From positions 1-64,000 of the forward strand of contig CATKZP010000015.1 of assembly GCA_949841355.1 (NCBI GenBank): a stretch of 64,000 nucleotides of DNA, given 5' to 3'. Each line of letters starts with the position of its first letter. Positions within the stretch are counted from its first letter, which is position 1. The position numbers and the translations under genes were made by a program. The notes beneath the pieces were generated by a model. That model saw only the letters and a program-made list of their open reading frames with translations. It was not told the DNA's origin and searched no databases. This stretch comes from an uncultured Oscillospiraceae bacterium (GTDB lineage: Bacteria > Bacillota > Clostridia > Oscillospirales > Oscillospiraceae). This document shows, piece after piece, positions 19,144 through 49,664 of this stretch.

Positions 19144-19323
19144 GTGTACCTTATTGCAACCAAAAGTCCGTCATAACGTGTACCTTTTTGCACTTGAATT
19201 TTATTTCCCAAAAAATTTATAAAAGGTATTGAAAATTCCTAATTTATGTGGTACATTGTTTCTGGAATAGTGCGCGGACCGGTTACAAAAAGGTACACAT
19301 TTTTGTAACCCCCTACCTATAAT
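19144..19323. promoter_or_regulatory. Repeated GTGTACCTTTTTGCA sites, inverted repeat and -10 box
   Basis: GTGTACCTTATTGCA (19144-19158) and GTGTACCTTTTTGCA (19178-19192) are direct repeats 34 bp apart. A third copy lies on the other strand at 19284-19298, inside a perfect 11-bp inverted repeat GGTTACAAAAA / TTTTTGTAACC (19281-19310). TATAAT follows at 19318-19323. The layout fits an operator array before the AP2-like gene. The multiple-end-repeat pattern is also what an IS21-type element end looks like. Confidence 0.55.
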
Positions 19324-19333
19324 GAAGGGGCGA

Positions 19334-19918
19334 ATGCGGGCGATGAGGCATTCCACACGTAAATTGGACCTGACGGGGCAGCGGTTTGGAAAGCTGTCCG
19401 TTCTGGGGCCTGCGGAGAACATCGGCGTGCAGACAGCCTGGCGGTGCCGGTGCGACTGCGGGCGGGAAACAGTGGTCACCACGAAGCGGCTGCGGGCGGG
19501 ACGCACGGTATCCTGCGGCTGCGTCTATGGTAAGAGCATTGGAAAACGGCTGACCTATGTGGATGGAACCTGCGTGGAGATGCTGCGGGCCAAAACGGTG
19601 CGGCGCAACAACACCAGCGGAGTGCCGGGAGTGGGGTGGACGCCGTCCAAGGGTCTGTGGCGGGCTACCATCTGCTTCAAGGGAAAACGGTATTACCTGG
19701 GCGGCTACAAGAGCTTCGAGGACGCCGTCCAGGCCAGAAAGCGGGCGGAGGAAGAGCTGCACGACGGGTTTGTGCGGCAGTTTTCCGGTCTGCCGGAGGC
19801 ACAGAAGCAAACGCCGGTTGTGCCTGATGAGAAAGGAGGCAGCCCAATGGAAGAGGCGATCCCGCCCTGGAACGGCCCCACCGTCACATGCGCCGACGGC
19901 GGTGGGAGCAGGGGGTAG
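19334..19918 (+). CDS. AP2-domain DNA-binding protein with zinc-ribbon-like N terminus
   Basis: 194 residues from the ATG at 19334 (ATGs at 19322 and 19343 are alternatives; AAGGGG lies between the first two). LTGQRFGKLSVLGPAEN and WRCRCDCGRE...SCGC form the Cys-containing N-terminal part typical of phage and mobile-element DNA-binding proteins. GVPGVGWTPSKGLWRATICF and YYLGGYKSFEDAVQARKRAE form an AP2/ERF-like three-strand DNA-binding domain, as in homing-endonuclease families. No nuclease domain is present. The TAG stop falls at the very start of the first riboswitch aptamer, so this gene may read into, or supply transcription to, the c-di-GMP leader. Confidence 0.75.
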   Translation: MRAMRHSTRKLDLTGQRFGKLSVLGPAENIGVQTAWRCRCDCGRETVVTTKRLRAGRTVSCGCVYGKSIGKRLTYVDGTCVEMLRAKTVRRNNTSGVPGVGWTPSKGLWRATICFKGKRYYLGGYKSFEDAVQARKRAEEELHDGFVRQFSGLPEAQKQTPVVPDEKGGSPMEEAIPPWNGPTVTCADGGGSRG

Positions 19919-20002
19919 GGCGCACCGGCAAACCATTGGAAACAATGGGACGCAAAGCCAGGAAGCTTCGGTGCGTTCTTTGCACCATGCTCGTTCGGCT
20001 GC
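19917..20002 (+). promoter_or_regulatory. c-di-GMP-I (GEMM) riboswitch aptamer 1, locus A
   Basis: Contains the near-invariant GEMM core: CCGGCAAACC, a P2 stem CCATT-GGAAAC-AATGG with a GNRA-type loop, GGACGCAAAGCC, then a P3 hairpin GGTGC-GTTCTTT-GCACC and a closing strand. The match to the class I c-di-GMP aptamer is strong along the whole fold. cGAMP-binding GEMM variants cannot be excluded by eye. Confidence 0.88.
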
Positions 20003-20088
20003 ATACCGGCAAAGCGGCGGAAACGCCGGCTACGCAAAACCAGAGGCTACGGGGCGGGAAGCCGCCCTATGCTCGTTCGGTTACCGGG
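20003..20088 (+). promoter_or_regulatory. c-di-GMP-I (GEMM) riboswitch aptamer 2, locus A
   Basis: Directly abuts aptamer 1. It has CCGGCAAAGC, stem GGCG-GAAA-CGCC, then CTACGCAAAACCAGAGGCTACGG and a P3 stem GGGCGG-GAAG-CCGCCC, ending TGCTCGTTCGGTTACCGG. The core is less canonical than in aptamer 1 (ACGCAAAACC in place of ACGCAAAGCC). A tandem arrangement can give steeper ligand dependence or two-input logic. Confidence 0.8.
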
Positions 20089-20123
20089 TACTTTGCGTCC
20101 GTTCAAACGGCAAAGAAAGGAAG
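20089..20123 (+). promoter_or_regulatory. Predicted expression platform and SD, locus A
   Basis: CTTTGCGTCC (20091-20100) is exactly complementary to GGACGCAAAG of aptamer 1 (19948-19957). It can instead pair locally with ACGGCAAAG just before the SD AAAGGAAG. The two pairings exclude each other, so ligand binding should decide whether a hairpin abuts the ribosome-binding site. No T-tract is present, which favours control of translation over termination. Confidence 0.65.
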
Positions 20124-20129
20124 ATTTTT

Positions 20130-23100
20130 GTGAAAAAAACGATTACTAGAGTGTGTGTCTGGGCGCTCTCCGTGATCCTGGTAATCTCGCTTCTGCCGAT
20201 GAGCGCCTTCGCGGCAACGGTTGCGGCGAAACAGGTTTGCGAGAAGGAAGAGCACGAGCACAACGACGGCTGCTACAAAGCCACCGGCGAGACGGAGACG
20301 GTTCTGGTCTGCGAGAAGGAGGCCGAGGGCCATGTCCACACCGACGAGTGCTATGAGCAGCACTATGAGCTGAATTGTCAAGAGCCCAGCCATCAGGATA
20401 AGGTGGGCTGCGCCCACACCGACGAGAAATGCTGGAGCACTTACACCCTGCTGGTGTGCACGGCTGACGAGCACACCCACAGCGATGTGTGCCAGAAGAC
20501 CTGCGACCTGGCTGAGCATCAGCACAGCGAGGAGTGCGGGGAGGAGTGCGCCATCGCGGAGCACGTCCACAGCGATGCCTGCCAGCAGGTGTGCACCGTT
20601 GAGGAGCACACCCATGACGACAGCTGCTGCACCCAGGAGAAGAAGCTGGTCTGCACCCTGCCCGACCAGGCGGAGGAAAAGCACACCGAGGCTTGCTACC
20701 GCTACGTGAAGGCGGAGGACGCCAAGCTGCTGTGCACCCTGACCGAGGACGCCCAGGCTCATGAGCACACCGAGGAGTGCTATGTGACCCAGGATGTCAA
20801 AGAGCTGACTTGTGAGCTGGATGAGCACAAGCACAATGCGGAGTGCTTTACCAACACAACCGAGGACGGCAAGACCTTGGAGCAGGCTCTGAAAGACGCT
20901 CTGGAGGCCGCTGGCAAGGATGGCGCCGAGGATACCCAGGTTATCCTGATCCTCAATGGCCAGACCCTGAATGTTGACCAGCATGGCACCCTGACTAGCA
21001 TCCGTCTGGAAGGCGGCCAGAGCCTGTCCATTGAGGACGGCATTGTGGCCGGCGGTACGATCCAGGGCAAAGGCGACAGCGTGCGCCTCATCACTGTGAA
21101 AAACGGCAGCGTCAACCTGAGCGGCAGCACCGTGCTCACGGGCGGCAACGGCACCGGCGGCGGCGCGATTTACGTGGGCAGCAACGGCAGCCTGAACATG
21201 TCCGGCGGCACCATCACCGGCAATACCGCCATCGTGGGCAGCGGCGTCGCTTCCAACGGCGGCGCGGTCCTGGTGGAAAACGGCGGCAAGTTCGAGATGT
21301 CTGGCGGCTCCATCACCGGCAATACCGCCACTGGCAACGGCGGCGGCGTGTCCGTGGGTCAGAACGGTCAGTTCACCATGACCGGCGGCTCCATCGACGG
21401 CAACGAGGCCGTCGTGGGCGGCGGCGTCTATGTGGGCGTTGACAACAACAATGCCGTCAAGGGCGGCGAGTTCACTCTGTCCGGCGGCTCCATTTCCAAC
21501 AACACTGCCACCAACGAAGGCGGCGGCGTCTTTGTGGACAAGAAATGGGACAAATCGGTGGGTAACTTCACCATGAACGGCGGCGTCATCGACCACAACA
21601 CCGCTATGGCCGGCGAGGGCGGCGGCGTGTATATCAAGGGCGAGGGCACCATCACCAGCGGCGCGATCACCAACAACGTGACCAACACCTACAAGGATCT
21701 GGGCGGCGGCGGCATCTACATTGAGGCCGACGGCGTGCTGACCCTGAAGAACGCCATCATCACCGGCAATACCGCCAACGGCCTGGGCGGCGGCCTTGCG
21801 GCCTGCGTCCACGGCAAGACCTACGTGTATGCCCTTGAGGGCGCGATCATCGCCGGCAACAACGCTCTGGGTCAGGGCCACACCGAGGGATACCAGAACG
21901 GTCAGGGCTCCTACAACGGCAGCTTTACCGACGGTTATTCCTACTGGGCGTCTGCGGAAGACGTGATCAAGAATGCGGCTCAGGACATTTTCGCTGCGGG
22001 CGACGCCTTTGAGGCGAGCCTTGCCAACCCCGGCACCGCGACCAACGGCCAGGGCACTGCCGGCATCATTGTCAGCAACAACCTGCCCCAGGGCAACGGC
22101 GCCGCCAACTGGAGCGGCTACACCTTCTCCTACGTGACCGACGAGGACGGTAAGCCGATGAGGGACAGCAACGACAATTATATCTTTGAGCTGACTGAGA
22201 TCACCGACACCAACAACGGCGTGGTGTACGGCAACCGGCTGGTGTTCCTGACTGCGGACCCCAGCGAGGAGTCTGTGCAGAAGGCCATTGCGGCCATGCA
22301 GGGCGGCGTGATCATCTCCGGCAACCTGTCCACCAACAGCCACGGCGGCGGCATCGCCAACAACGGCGTGCTGACCATCGGTGAAGGCCCCATGACTGGC
22401 ACCAACAGCTACCGGCCCGAGCCGGAGCTGGATAAGACTCTGATGGACACCAACGGCAACGAGCTGGAAAAGGTCGAGGCGTTCCAGTTCCAGATGACCG
22501 ACGCGGACGGCAACGTCGTGGGCACTGTGACCAACGATGAGAACGGCAAGGCCATCTTCAACATGCTGCCTGACTACGTCAACGAGAAGCTCGACAGCTT
22601 CGAGGGCGACGAGCTGGTGCTTGAGCTCTTCGTCACCGAGCTGGCGGACGCCGAGAAGTATTCCAACGTGATCTTCGACGGAACCCAGTACAAGGTGGTC
22701 ATCAAGATCACCCGCACGGTGGAAGAGGTCACCCTCGGCCAGGGTACGGTCTCCATGGAGACCGTGACCGTTGGCGAGCCTGAGATCTGGGTGCTCAAGG
22801 TTGACGAGAATGGCGACGCCGTTGTCGATGAGAACGGCAATCCGGTCTACGAGACTGCGGCGGACGGCATCGCGTTCACCAACAAGTATGTTGAGCCCGG
22901 CAAGCCCATTGATCCCCCCGGCGGCGGCAATAACGAGGACGATCCCGGCGACGACGTGACGCCTCCTCCCACCGAGGAAATCCGTGAGCCTGAGGTCCCC
23001 CTCGAGGAGCTGCCTGAGCGGCCCGAGGAAGCCGAGAAGCGGGAAGAGATCGAGCTGGAGGACCCCGATGTCCCCCTGTCCGACGTGCCCCAGACCGGCG

Positions 23101-23195
23101 ACATTTCTCTGGGCTGGTACGGCGCTGGCATCCTGTCCGCGCTGGGCCTGCTGATGCTGAGCCTCTTCGGGCGAAAGAAGTCCCAGGAGGACTGA
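20130..23195 (+). CDS. Large secreted surface protein, Cys/His repeats, beta-helix, VPQTGD anchor
   Basis: 1021 residues from a GTG start at 20130 with SD AAAGGAAG. A signal peptide (1-28, cleavage after AFA) is followed by about ten Cys/His repeats of the form EHxHxxxC between residues 35 and 260. Next comes a right-handed beta-helix of GGG-(I/V)YV-x-GSLNMSGGTITGN-type repeats (about 300-720), then a Spy0128/pilin isopeptide-like domain (FQMTDADGNVVGTVTNDENG ... GIAFTNKY). The C terminus is a Pro/Glu-rich stalk, the sorting signal DVPQTGD, a hydrophobic helix and a GRKKSQED tail. It should be attached to the cell wall, probably by the class B sortase that follows. Function is inferred as adhesin or envelope structure. 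Confidence 0.9.
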   Translation: MKKTITRVCVWALSVILVISLLPMSAFAATVAAKQVCEKEEHEHNDGCYKATGETETVLVCEKEAEGHVHTDECYEQHYELNCQEPSHQDKVGCAHTDEKCWSTYTLLVCTADEHTHSDVCQKTCDLAEHQHSEECGEECAIAEHVHSDACQQVCTVEEHTHDDSCCTQEKKLVCTLPDQAEEKHTEACYRYVKAEDAKLLCTLTEDAQAHEHTEECYVTQDVKELTCELDEHKHNAECFTNTTEDGKTLEQALKDALEAAGKDGAEDTQVILILNGQTLNVDQHGTLTSIRLEGGQSLSIEDGIVAGGTIQGKGDSVRLITVKNGSVNLSGSTVLTGGNGTGGGAIYVGSNGSLNMSGGTITGNTAIVGSGVASNGGAVLVENGGKFEMSGGSITGNTATGNGGGVSVGQNGQFTMTGGSIDGNEAVVGGGVYVGVDNNNAVKGGEFTLSGGSISNNTATNEGGGVFVDKKWDKSVGNFTMNGGVIDHNTAMAGEGGGVYIKGEGTITSGAITNNVTNTYKDLGGGGIYIEADGVLTLKNAIITGNTANGLGGGLAACVHGKTYVYALEGAIIAGNNALGQGHTEGYQNGQGSYNGSFTDGYSYWASAEDVIKNAAQDIFAAGDAFEASLANPGTATNGQGTAGIIVSNNLPQGNGAANWSGYTFSYVTDEDGKPMRDSNDNYIFELTEITDTNNGVVYGNRLVFLTADPSEESVQKAIAAMQGGVIISGNLSTNSHGGGIANNGVLTIGEGPMTGTNSYRPEPELDKTLMDTNGNELEKVEAFQFQMTDADGNVVGTVTNDENGKAIFNMLPDYVNEKLDSFEGDELVLELFVTELADAEKYSNVIFDGTQYKVVIKITRTVEEVTLGQGTVSMETVTVGEPEIWVLKVDENGDAVVDENGNPVYETAADGIAFTNKYVEPGKPIDPPGGGNNEDDPGDDVTPPPTEEIREPEVPLEELPERPEEAEKREEIELEDPDVPLSDVPQTGDISLGWYGAGILSALGLLMLSLFGRKKSQED

Positions 23196-23235
23196 TCCAC
23201 AGCCTGCATAGCAGGCGGAAGCATAGTGCTAAAAG

Positions 23236-23264
23236 GAGCCGGGGCCCTCAGCGGGCCCCGGCTC
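23236..23264 (+). terminator. Hairpin between surface gene A and sortase A
   Basis: GAGCCGGGGCCC / GGGCCCCGGCTC with a 5-nt loop and only a short T run (CTTGACC). It probably lowers read-through into the sortase gene and so sets the ratio of substrate to enzyme. Confidence 0.65.
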
Positions 23265-23300
23265 TTGACCATGAGCAGAAAAGGGAAGGAATGGACGAAT

Positions 23301-24128
23301 ATGAACCAAAAAGTGGTCAAATTGCTGCGGATTGTACTGTTCGGAGTGCTGATAGCGGCGGTTGGAGTGGTGATCTGGCGTCAAGCGGAGTACGCCGGGG
23401 GGAGAGCGGACTATGACAAGGCGGCGGAGCTGGCGGGCCTGACTGAGACGGCGGCCCCTTCAGCCTCGCCGTCAGCCCAGCCTTCCGGCGGCCCTGCCGC
23501 TGCGGAGGAGACCCTGCCGCCGGAGGAGGAGGCCCCCATCCGCCTGGAGGATGTGGACCTGGCCGCCCTCCAGCAGGTGAACAGCGACGTGATTGGCTGG
23601 ATCTCCATTCCGGACACTGAGCTGTCCTACCCTGTGCTTCAGGGGGAGGACAACCAGTATTACCTCAACCACACCTGGCGGAAGCAGCGCAACGGGGTGG
23701 GGGCGATTTATATGGACTACCGCTTTGATCCGGGCCTGACGGATTTTTACACCCTGATCTACGGCCACCGGATGCACAACGCCACCATGTTCGGCAGCCT
23801 GGCCCGATATGACAGCAAGGCCTACTGGGAGGAGCACCCCAGTGTGTACATAGCCCACGAGGGCGGAGTGAACGAATACGACATCTTCGCCGCCTTTGAG
23901 GCCAGCGTGGACAGCGATGTCTACCGCCGGGGGTTCTCCCAGACGGAGGACCGGGAGGCGTTCATCTCCTGGTGCCTGGAGCAGTCGGTGATCGACACCG
24001 GGGTGCGTCCCACAGCGGAGGGAAGGATCATCACCCTGTCCACCTGCACCCAGAGCGGCGGGGCCGCCACCCGTTGGGTGGTGCTGGCGTCGCTGGCCGA
24101 GACGGAGGAAAACAGCTCCGCCGGGTAA
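23301..24128 (+). CDS. srtB: Class B sortase, locus A
   Basis: 275 residues from the ATG at 23301 (AAGGGAAGGA SD). An N-terminal anchor helix (10-26) and a Pro/Ala/Glu linker are followed by the sortase barrel. Catalytic residues are visible: His156 in YGHRMHN, Cys249 in TLSTC and Arg258 in TRWVV. The features WISIPDTELSYPVLQG and the extra helix before the catalytic Cys place it in class B. It stands alone after the VPQTGD surface protein, so it is probably the dedicated anchoring enzyme. Confidence 0.93.
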   Translation: MNQKVVKLLRIVLFGVLIAAVGVVIWRQAEYAGGRADYDKAAELAGLTETAAPSASPSAQPSGGPAAAEETLPPEEEAPIRLEDVDLAALQQVNSDVIGWISIPDTELSYPVLQGEDNQYYLNHTWRKQRNGVGAIYMDYRFDPGLTDFYTLIYGHRMHNATMFGSLARYDSKAYWEEHPSVYIAHEGGVNEYDIFAAFEASVDSDVYRRGFSQTEDREAFISWCLEQSVIDTGVRPTAEGRIITLSTCTQSGGAATRWVVLASLAETEENSSAG

Positions 24129-49310: not shown

Positions 49311-49350
49311 AAATGGGGGTACCCCCATTTCCCTGCTCCATGGAGCAGGG
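49311..49350. repeat. Two adjoining perfect 20-bp palindromes
   Basis: AAATGGGGGTACCCCCATTT (49311-49330) is followed at once by CCCTGCTCCATGGAGCAGGG (49331-49350); both are perfect. Direct repeats GCGCGCAAAG flank them at 49295-49304 and 49362-49371. They could form a cruciform, a terminator of the upstream module or an operator. They precede riboswitch locus B. Confidence 0.75.
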
Positions 49351-49449
49351 AAGGGCAGTTGAGCGCGCAAAGGGAGGGTATGTGCATGAGGGACGAAAAA
49401 CCTTGGGCCGACCCCGCCGCCGGATACGCCGACAGCGGCGGGGTGACAG

Positions 49450-49531
49450 GGCACCGGCGTTGGCAAACCATTGGAAACAATGGGACGCAAAGCCAGGGGC
49501 TGTTGGGCGATGCCCTATGCTCGACCGGTTG
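49450..49531 (+). promoter_or_regulatory. c-di-GMP-I (GEMM) riboswitch aptamer 1, locus B
   Basis: CACCGGCGTTGGCAAACC, P2 CCATT-GGAAAC-AATGG, GGACGCAAAGCCAGGGGCTG and P3 GGGC-GAT-GCCC, ending CTATGCTCGACCGGTTGC. The core from GGCAAACC to GCAAAGCCA is identical to locus A aptamer 1 over 34 nt. Confidence 0.88.
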
Positions 49532-49621
49532 CATGGCAAACCATGGGAAACCATGGGACTGCAAAACCAGAGGCTAAGGTGCGGTACGGCGTGGTATTGC
49601 GCTATGTTCGTTCGGTTACCG
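49532..49621 (+). promoter_or_regulatory. c-di-GMP-I (GEMM) riboswitch aptamer 2, locus B
   Basis: TGGCAAACC, P2 CCATG-GGAAAC-CATGG, GACTGCAAAACCAGAGGCTAAGG, then P3 and CTATGTTCGTTCGGTTACCGG. As in locus A the second aptamer has GCAAAACCAGAGGCTA instead of GCAAAGCC and ends with the same GTTCGTTCGGTTACCGG strand. Confidence 0.82.
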
Positions 49622-49656
49622 GACCCTTTGCGTCCGCGAATTGCAAAGAAAGGAAG
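49622..49656 (+). promoter_or_regulatory. Predicted expression platform and SD, locus B
   Basis: CTTTGCGTCC (49626-49635) is complementary to GGACGCAAAG in aptamer 1 (49483-49492), or locally to TTGCAAAG just before AAAGGAAG. The string GCAAAGAAAGGAAG is the same as in locus A. Confidence 0.65.
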
Positions 49657-49664
49657 TAATTAGC

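Follow-up and report, generated by a model that had tools for sequence, protein, structure and literature searches.

A 2022 survey (PMC9481103) lists 347 doublet and 12 triplet arrangements of c-di-GMP-I aptamers, and doublets and triplets are also listed in PMC12452182. As a kind, tandem GEMM aptamers are therefore not rare, contrary to the original prediction, which had called them uncommon; in the genome studied here all five c-di-GMP-I leaders found are tandem. In Bacillus thuringiensis, the same-ligand tandem aptamers Bc3-5 precede one operon; each is part of a full riboswitch that has a predicted terminator of its own, and the three were assumed to be independent elements (PMC4759541). 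In the tandem glycine riboswitch, similar aptamers act on one platform, and the relation between the number of sites and the steepness of the switch is debated (PMC9481103).

The locus described here (locus A) lies in a window of 64,000 nucleotides, positions 1 to 64,000 of contig 15 of the 2.76-Mb genome of an uncultured Oscillospiraceae bacterium. All coordinates refer to this window, and all features lie on the + strand. Like Bc3-5, locus A has same-ligand tandem aptamers ahead of one operon, but these aptamers are contiguous and are followed by one translational platform. The platform between aptamers that marks pseudo-cooperative tandems is absent, as the junction is 5 nt long and contains no terminator-like site. 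With the tandem glycine riboswitch the locus shares the arrangement of two aptamers and one element; it differs in aptamer and ligand, in cluster sizes of up to five among relatives, and in that cooperativity is here only putative. G20, C92 and the core are conserved as in the c-di-GMP-I family (GEMM-I, RF01051), and both aptamers score above its cut-off. Unlike in that family, there is scarcely any room for a P1 helix between the aptamers, and several of them share one element on the side of the SD sequence. Translational riboswitches of the preQ1 type carry an H-type pseudoknot that adjoins the SD. A pseudoknot beside the SD is predicted here as well, but it would be the platform and separate from the ligand-binding aptamer. 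Our literature search, which left supplements and most subscription papers outside its range, yielded no description of contiguous c-di-GMP-I arrays with at least four aptamers or of a shared SD-side platform.

Aptamer 1 (19917..20006) matches RF01051 with 61.7 bits (E=1.2e-9), the G20 and C92 equivalents being 19927 and 20002. Aptamer 2 (19998..20088) scores 49.1 bits both in the genome search and when scanned alone (E=3.3e-9), with the equivalents at 20008 and 20084. Both are full length with respect to the model (1-87) and exceed its gathering score of 35 bits. The original prediction had read two back-to-back GEMM-type aptamers from the letters and had proposed the Rfam GEMM-I covariance model as a check; the scores bear out the pair. 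The ligand-contact bases G20, A47 and C92, to which we assign the aligned positions by presumed equivalence with Vc2 numbering, are present in both aptamers. The core of aptamer 2, ACGCAAAACC, had been regarded as non-canonical. This proved wrong: in the model alignment a G-C pair of AGCC/GGCU is replaced by A-U, such that the canonical pairing is kept as AACC/GGUU. The departures from the consensus are an additional nucleotide in P2, a U in place of the G immediately 5' of ACGC and, in P3, one absent nucleotide and one non-standard pair. The ligand pockets are separated by the junction ATACC (20003..20007), where by eye at most UACC could pair with GGUA as a short P1; the RF01051 model does not contain P1. 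The related aptamer Cd1 bound c-di-GMP without a detectable P1 helix, whereas Vc2 requires P1 (PMC9262584). No terminator-like site was found on the + strand between 18500 and 20200, and transcription termination was therefore dropped as a mode of action at locus A.

A second c-di-GMP-I doublet of the window, locus B (49452..49623), scores 59.6 and 51.5 bits and has a junction of 2 nt. When the whole window was searched with cmscan, only the first aptamer was reported at each locus, that is, two of the four, and in a cmscan of 19600-20400 the one match that covered aptamer 2 was a weak one to RF03167 (17.6 bits). The two hits at locus A share 9 nt of unpaired flank, and among overlapping matches of the same clan the tool keeps the best one; this likely explains the absence of aptamer 2 from the whole-window result. 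At gathering level, cmscan listed 34 of the 47 aptamers that the genome search had found in 12 arrays, a shortfall that probably stems from the overlap of neighbouring hits. According to PMC9481103, some candidates with overlapping coordinates were discarded there as false positives. Arrays like these could be lost in such an overlap-removal step, and surveys that drop overlapping matches could more generally undercount contiguous arrays.

The original prediction had further suggested that the two aptamers might differ in affinity, which may be the case, or even respond to two ligands. The base at position 20 is A in cGAMP-binding relatives (GEMM-Ib). In both aptamers of locus A it is G, which on the basis of structural work we take to indicate c-di-GMP. 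Three GGDEF proteins were found in the genome, two of which keep GGEEF/GGDEF; in all three domains, D occupies the position at which Hypr cGAMP synthases have Ser, a residue that presumably marks the cGAMP-making enzymes. A gate in which one aptamer senses c-di-GMP and the other cGAMP is thus highly improbable. It could draw on the A20 found in some later aptamers elsewhere (14 of 61 last and 6 of 39 middle aptamers), but both aptamers here have G20 and C92, none of the three GGDEF domains is of the Hypr type as we understand it, and C or T also occurs at this position (11 of 61 last aptamers). cGAMP was therefore rejected as a second ligand for the window. Across the arrays, G20 is present in 58 of 61 first and 35 of 61 last aptamers, one of the position-20 calls being a '?'. 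In 25 of the 61 last aptamers, among them those of L015 and L220, the base is A, C or T; C and T sit uneasily with what is known of ligand binding.

According to the original prediction, the aptamers end 7 nt before the SD. However, the SD occupies 20116-20123, the C92 equivalent of aptamer 2 being position 20084, and the interval 20085-20115 is a conserved 31-nt element. Two helices can be drawn in it. S1 (20085..20101) pairs CGGGU (20085-20089) with GUCCG (20097-20101), and S2 (20091..20115) pairs CUUUGC (20091-20096) with GCAAAG (20110-20115); the SD AAAGGAAG (20116..20123) follows immediately 3' of S2. Starting at C92 of the last aptamer, the consensus reads C-CGGAY-N1-2-CUUUGC-RUCCG-N4-10-GCAAAG-AAAGGRAG. 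A nested S1 and a crossing S2 with loops of 1-2 nt, none and 4-10 nt are compatible with the geometry rules for H-type pseudoknots. The same element and SD occur at locus B (49619..49657, by alignment), ahead of a MucBP protein (PF06458, E=6.8e-21) with a VPETGD motif.

In an alignment of 49 distinct platforms, collected by means of patterns biased towards S1, standard pairs occupy 99.4% of the 539 cells of S1 and S2 (99.6% in S1 and 99.3% in S2), compared to 26.5-42.9% in slid registers. The alignment omits L051 and L064, which lie beyond the pattern range, as well as identical rows and L233. The pair types of S1 include GC/AU, AU/GU and UG/UA/CG, the last set belonging to columns 6/15 (UG 20, UA 16, CG 12, one mismatch). 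Covariation of S1/S2 was 0.099 versus 0.074 in shuffled alignments, and none of 500 shuffles reached the observed value. A two-sided change was seen in one pair only (G-C to A-U in L063) and was equalled by 22 of 500 shuffles; additional pair types were not in excess over the shuffles (8 vs 8.0; 484/500). Four platforms folded alone were of unremarkable stability (z from +0.40 to -1.12). In the platform at L087:470-510, one S2 strand is altered to UGCUG and matches a shifted CAGCA, as if the register had moved.

Of 77 clusters examined, which come from the genus and from the family genomes G071, G110 and G111, 62 have the element on their 3' side; the 15 clusters without it comprise nine single aptamers, three spaced pairs, two cut by contig ends and one decayed copy (L233). 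A pattern search of 42 genus genomes gave 42 sites in 11 genomes and none in the reversed control, and all 42 sites lie at most 155 nt from the end of an RF01051 cluster. A scan of 84,980 species genomes gave at least 117 stretches. Among the matches listed (83 sites, 80 loci, some of which coincide with loci of the genus set), upstream aptamers were detected at 73 sites by pattern and at two more, in L143 and L153, by Rfam, the pattern having given zero there; one further site is cut by a contig end and seven, in unrelated genomes, have no pattern-detected aptamer. Cultured bacteria are among the carriers, for example Oscillibacter sp. 1-3 (L107), Flintibacter muris DSM 110149 (L126) and, from the Lachnospiraceae, Acetatifactor muris DSM 23669 (L150/L160).

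The genome of the window has 13 aptamers above the cut-off, distributed over its five leaders as 2, 2, 3, 3 and 3. Within the genus, 17 of 42 genomes gave RF01051 matches (E up to 0.001), with 137 hits in 62 clusters, namely 16 single, 23 double, 17 triple and 6 quadruple ones. These sizes are lower bounds; in L051, L064, L072 and L084 the platform lies 94-155 nt past the last reported aptamer hit. Between the C92 and G20 equivalents, 70 of 75 genus junctions measure 1-31 nt, 25 of them being 2 nt and 26 being 1-2 nt, and the remaining five measure at least 118 nt; the formula for junction length presumes hits that reach the model ends. Hits were found in 107 genomes of the family, of which 14 were picked as a contrast set for having several hits; of the family-wide search, in which 10 candidates were scored per genome, the tally alone was used. 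Three of the 14 have contiguous junctions (six in G071, 12 in G110 and five in G111) along with two spaced ones, and the other 11 have 19 spaced junctions and no contiguous one. G110, from another genus, carries two five-aptamer clusters (L220 and L221) ahead of exported proteins; one is wholly contiguous, with junctions of 7, 9, 7 and 1 nt, and the other has one junction of 81 nt.

These counts bear on the view that the aptamers are independent, pseudo-cooperative riboswitches with a platform each, as with Bc3-Bc5 of B. thuringiensis. Table 1 of PMC9481103 appears to file c-di-GMP-I tandems under multiple expression platforms, and other genera of the family contain spaced tandems, in which, for example in G138, a terminator-like inter-aptamer hairpin with a T run was seen by eye. 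Junctions of 1-31 nt are, however, too short for a platform each; at locus A no terminator-like site was found on the + strand, and of the two weak terminator-like sites on the + strand of locus B one falls within the P3 arm of aptamer 2 and the other 5' of the array. We therefore regard independent switches as very improbable. That several aptamers are joined to a single platform is, as judged from the sequences, near certain.

A further alternative is that the last aptamer alone works with the platform, and that the upstream ones tune its folding or are duplicates kept by chance. The platform is joined directly to the last aptamer, and platform loci with one detected aptamer exist (L061, L099). 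On the other hand, the upstream aptamers score above the cut-off, 172 of 177 aptamers, whatever their place in the array, have C at the C92 equivalent, and with respect to G20 (see the counts above) the upstream copies are if anything better conserved than the last. This alternative seems unlikely to us.

The gene behind locus A (20130..23195) begins with a GTG codon at 20130 and codes for an exported protein of 1021 residues with a pattern-detected signal peptide and a C-terminal VPQTGD sorting signal; the protein has no Pfam match up to an E value of 0.01. A sortase gene (23226..24128; PF04203, E=1.4e-15) follows. The surface protein had been named correctly in the original prediction, and its control by tandem c-di-GMP-I aptamers is supported by the covariance scores, the gene context and the GGDEF proteins of the genome. 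Each of the five target genes of this genome encodes an exported protein; two of these proteins have sorting signals and are followed by sortases, and three have SLH domains. Among 77 leaders, a signal peptide was recognized, by a crude pattern, in 66 of the 69 that have an ORF, a sorting motif in 15 and an SLH-like motif in 15. If several aptamers do feed one platform, the arrays suggest that c-di-GMP sets the display of many surface proteins of gut Clostridia.

The first strand of S2 has a second potential partner. CUUUGCGUCC (20091-20100) is complementary over 10 nt to GGACGCAAAG in the core of aptamer 1. A perfect 10-nt complement of the platform strand within the array, namely this core sequence, exists in 32 of 52 arrays, whereas shuffled strands reached 8 nt or more in 1.8% of cases. 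The 10-nt complement is present in 32 of the 34 arrays that carry CUUUGCGUCC and in none of the 18 that carry CUUUGCAUCC; in the latter the anti-core pairing is weak because the complement spans only 6-7 nt. In 43 arrays with two or three aptamers, the strand was predicted to pair with core strands at 0.27 on average, compared to 0.03 for shuffled strands, and the value was higher in 37 of them. When all aptamers of these 43 arrays were forced to fold, the upstream pairing of the strand fell from 0.44 to 0.17. In a shuffled-strand control with 39 arrays, the drop was 0.235 versus 0.088 and was larger in 27 of 39.

Other parts of the folding calculations gave a less uniform picture; nested folding cannot score pseudoknots. 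In the array of locus A, the nested model did not release the strand when both aptamers were forced (0.63 to 0.67). Predicted S2 did not rise on average under forced aptamers (0.35 to 0.32), and nested folding predicted occlusion of the SD in neither state (mean SD accessibility 0.74 and 0.79). Over 58 whole leaders, the mean values were 0.07 for S1, 0.31 for S2, 0.45 for upstream pairing and 0.66 for SD accessibility.

Taken together, we propose that a contiguous two-aptamer array, with up to five aptamers in relatives, feeds one translational platform by strand exchange and switches translation off, a reading to which we assign a probability of roughly 45%. CUUUGCRUCC would choose between the SD-side GCAAAG and the identical GCAAAG in the core of unoccupied aptamers. 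Empty aptamer cores would hold the platform strand; c-di-GMP would lock the cores and thus free the strand to pair with the SD-side copy. S1 could then stack under the ligand-paired C92, the pseudoknot would form against the SD, and the surface protein would be translated less. If each empty aptamer is able to act as a decoy, repression would need every site to be filled, which would create a sharp threshold. We regard strand exchange as such as likely. As to the direction, OFF is favoured only slightly, ON being nearly as likely.

As an ON switch, the same array and platform would work such that bound aptamers keep C92/C93 or the platform strand off the SD side, and the pseudoknot or a related fold would be the ligand-free OFF state. 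Adhesins and other surface proteins are usually raised by c-di-GMP, and the targets, exported and often sortase- or SLH-anchored, belong to this class; this argues against an OFF switch and for an ON switch. Moreover, in three of the four platforms folded alone (locus A, L015 and L016, not locus B) the CC of C92 and C93 reaches around S2 to pair with GG in the SD, and release of the strand was not predicted for the array of locus A. However, this CC-GG helix consists of two pairs only, and the usual device, a P1 at the last aptamer, has no 5' strand where junctions measure 1-2 nt (26 of 75). A match of the 5' flank GGCGCA to the platform's UGCGUC was seen in the constrained fold of locus A as a helix closing the array around both aptamers; in the rows inspected by eye the flank remains constant across the G/A variant of the platform (UGCAUC arrays), which speaks against this support for an ON switch, and we do not claim such a helix. 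The ON switch as a whole is a tentative reading that we rate as possible.

Returning to repression by strand exchange, a more specific form of it would be a threshold sensor, in which every empty aptamer serves as an antisense decoy, all two to five sites must be filled before the SD pseudoknot forms, and the steepness grows with aptamer number, possibly with a second input from a Pro-Pro-Trp/Gly leader peptide. We consider this form doubtful. The stacked layout could make the response to c-di-GMP unusually sharp. If several aptamers feed one platform, nature would provide a series of one to five sites on near-identical platforms, on which steepness could be measured against site number.

The region upstream of the array contains the candidate leader peptide. 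Its ORF MEEAIPPWNGPTVTCADGGGSRG (19847..19918), preceded by the SD AAAGGAGG, was recognized by its pattern of SD, start codon and motif. The pattern, which combines an SD and a start codon with a PP[W/G/R/V/E] or xPW motif, matches upstream of 48 of 77 clusters. Among 28 distinct PP cases, the Pro codons differ in their third base, and the prolines are followed by W in 15, G in seven, R in three, V in two and E in one. As PP is part of the search pattern, this codon variation is suggestive only. Adjacent prolines are able to stall ribosomes (PMC8129111). Within the frame lies a G+C-rich hairpin, CCCACCG/CGGTGGG (19877..19906, by direct reading), and equivalent arms were seen by eye in other leaders, for example at 49411-49444. 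Leader peptide and hairpin, located 5' of the first aptamer, may possibly constitute an attenuation-like second input.

The leader-peptide frame is traversed by a 198-residue ORF (19322..19918) that ends with TAG at 19916-19918 and gives a weak match to the AP2 domain (PF00847, E=3.7e-4, 21.2 bits, below the cut-off of 33.3). A promoter-like site, TACACA-18-TATAAT, is found at 19294-19323 and agrees in 10 of 12 positions. Related AP2-type frames, at a distance of no more than 300 nt, precede 17 of 77 array loci from three genera, locus A included. In many array leaders, as at 49311-49352 of the window and in L046, L047, L085 and L099, two successive palindromic hairpins occur near the presumed 5' end; their sequences differ and their form is the same.
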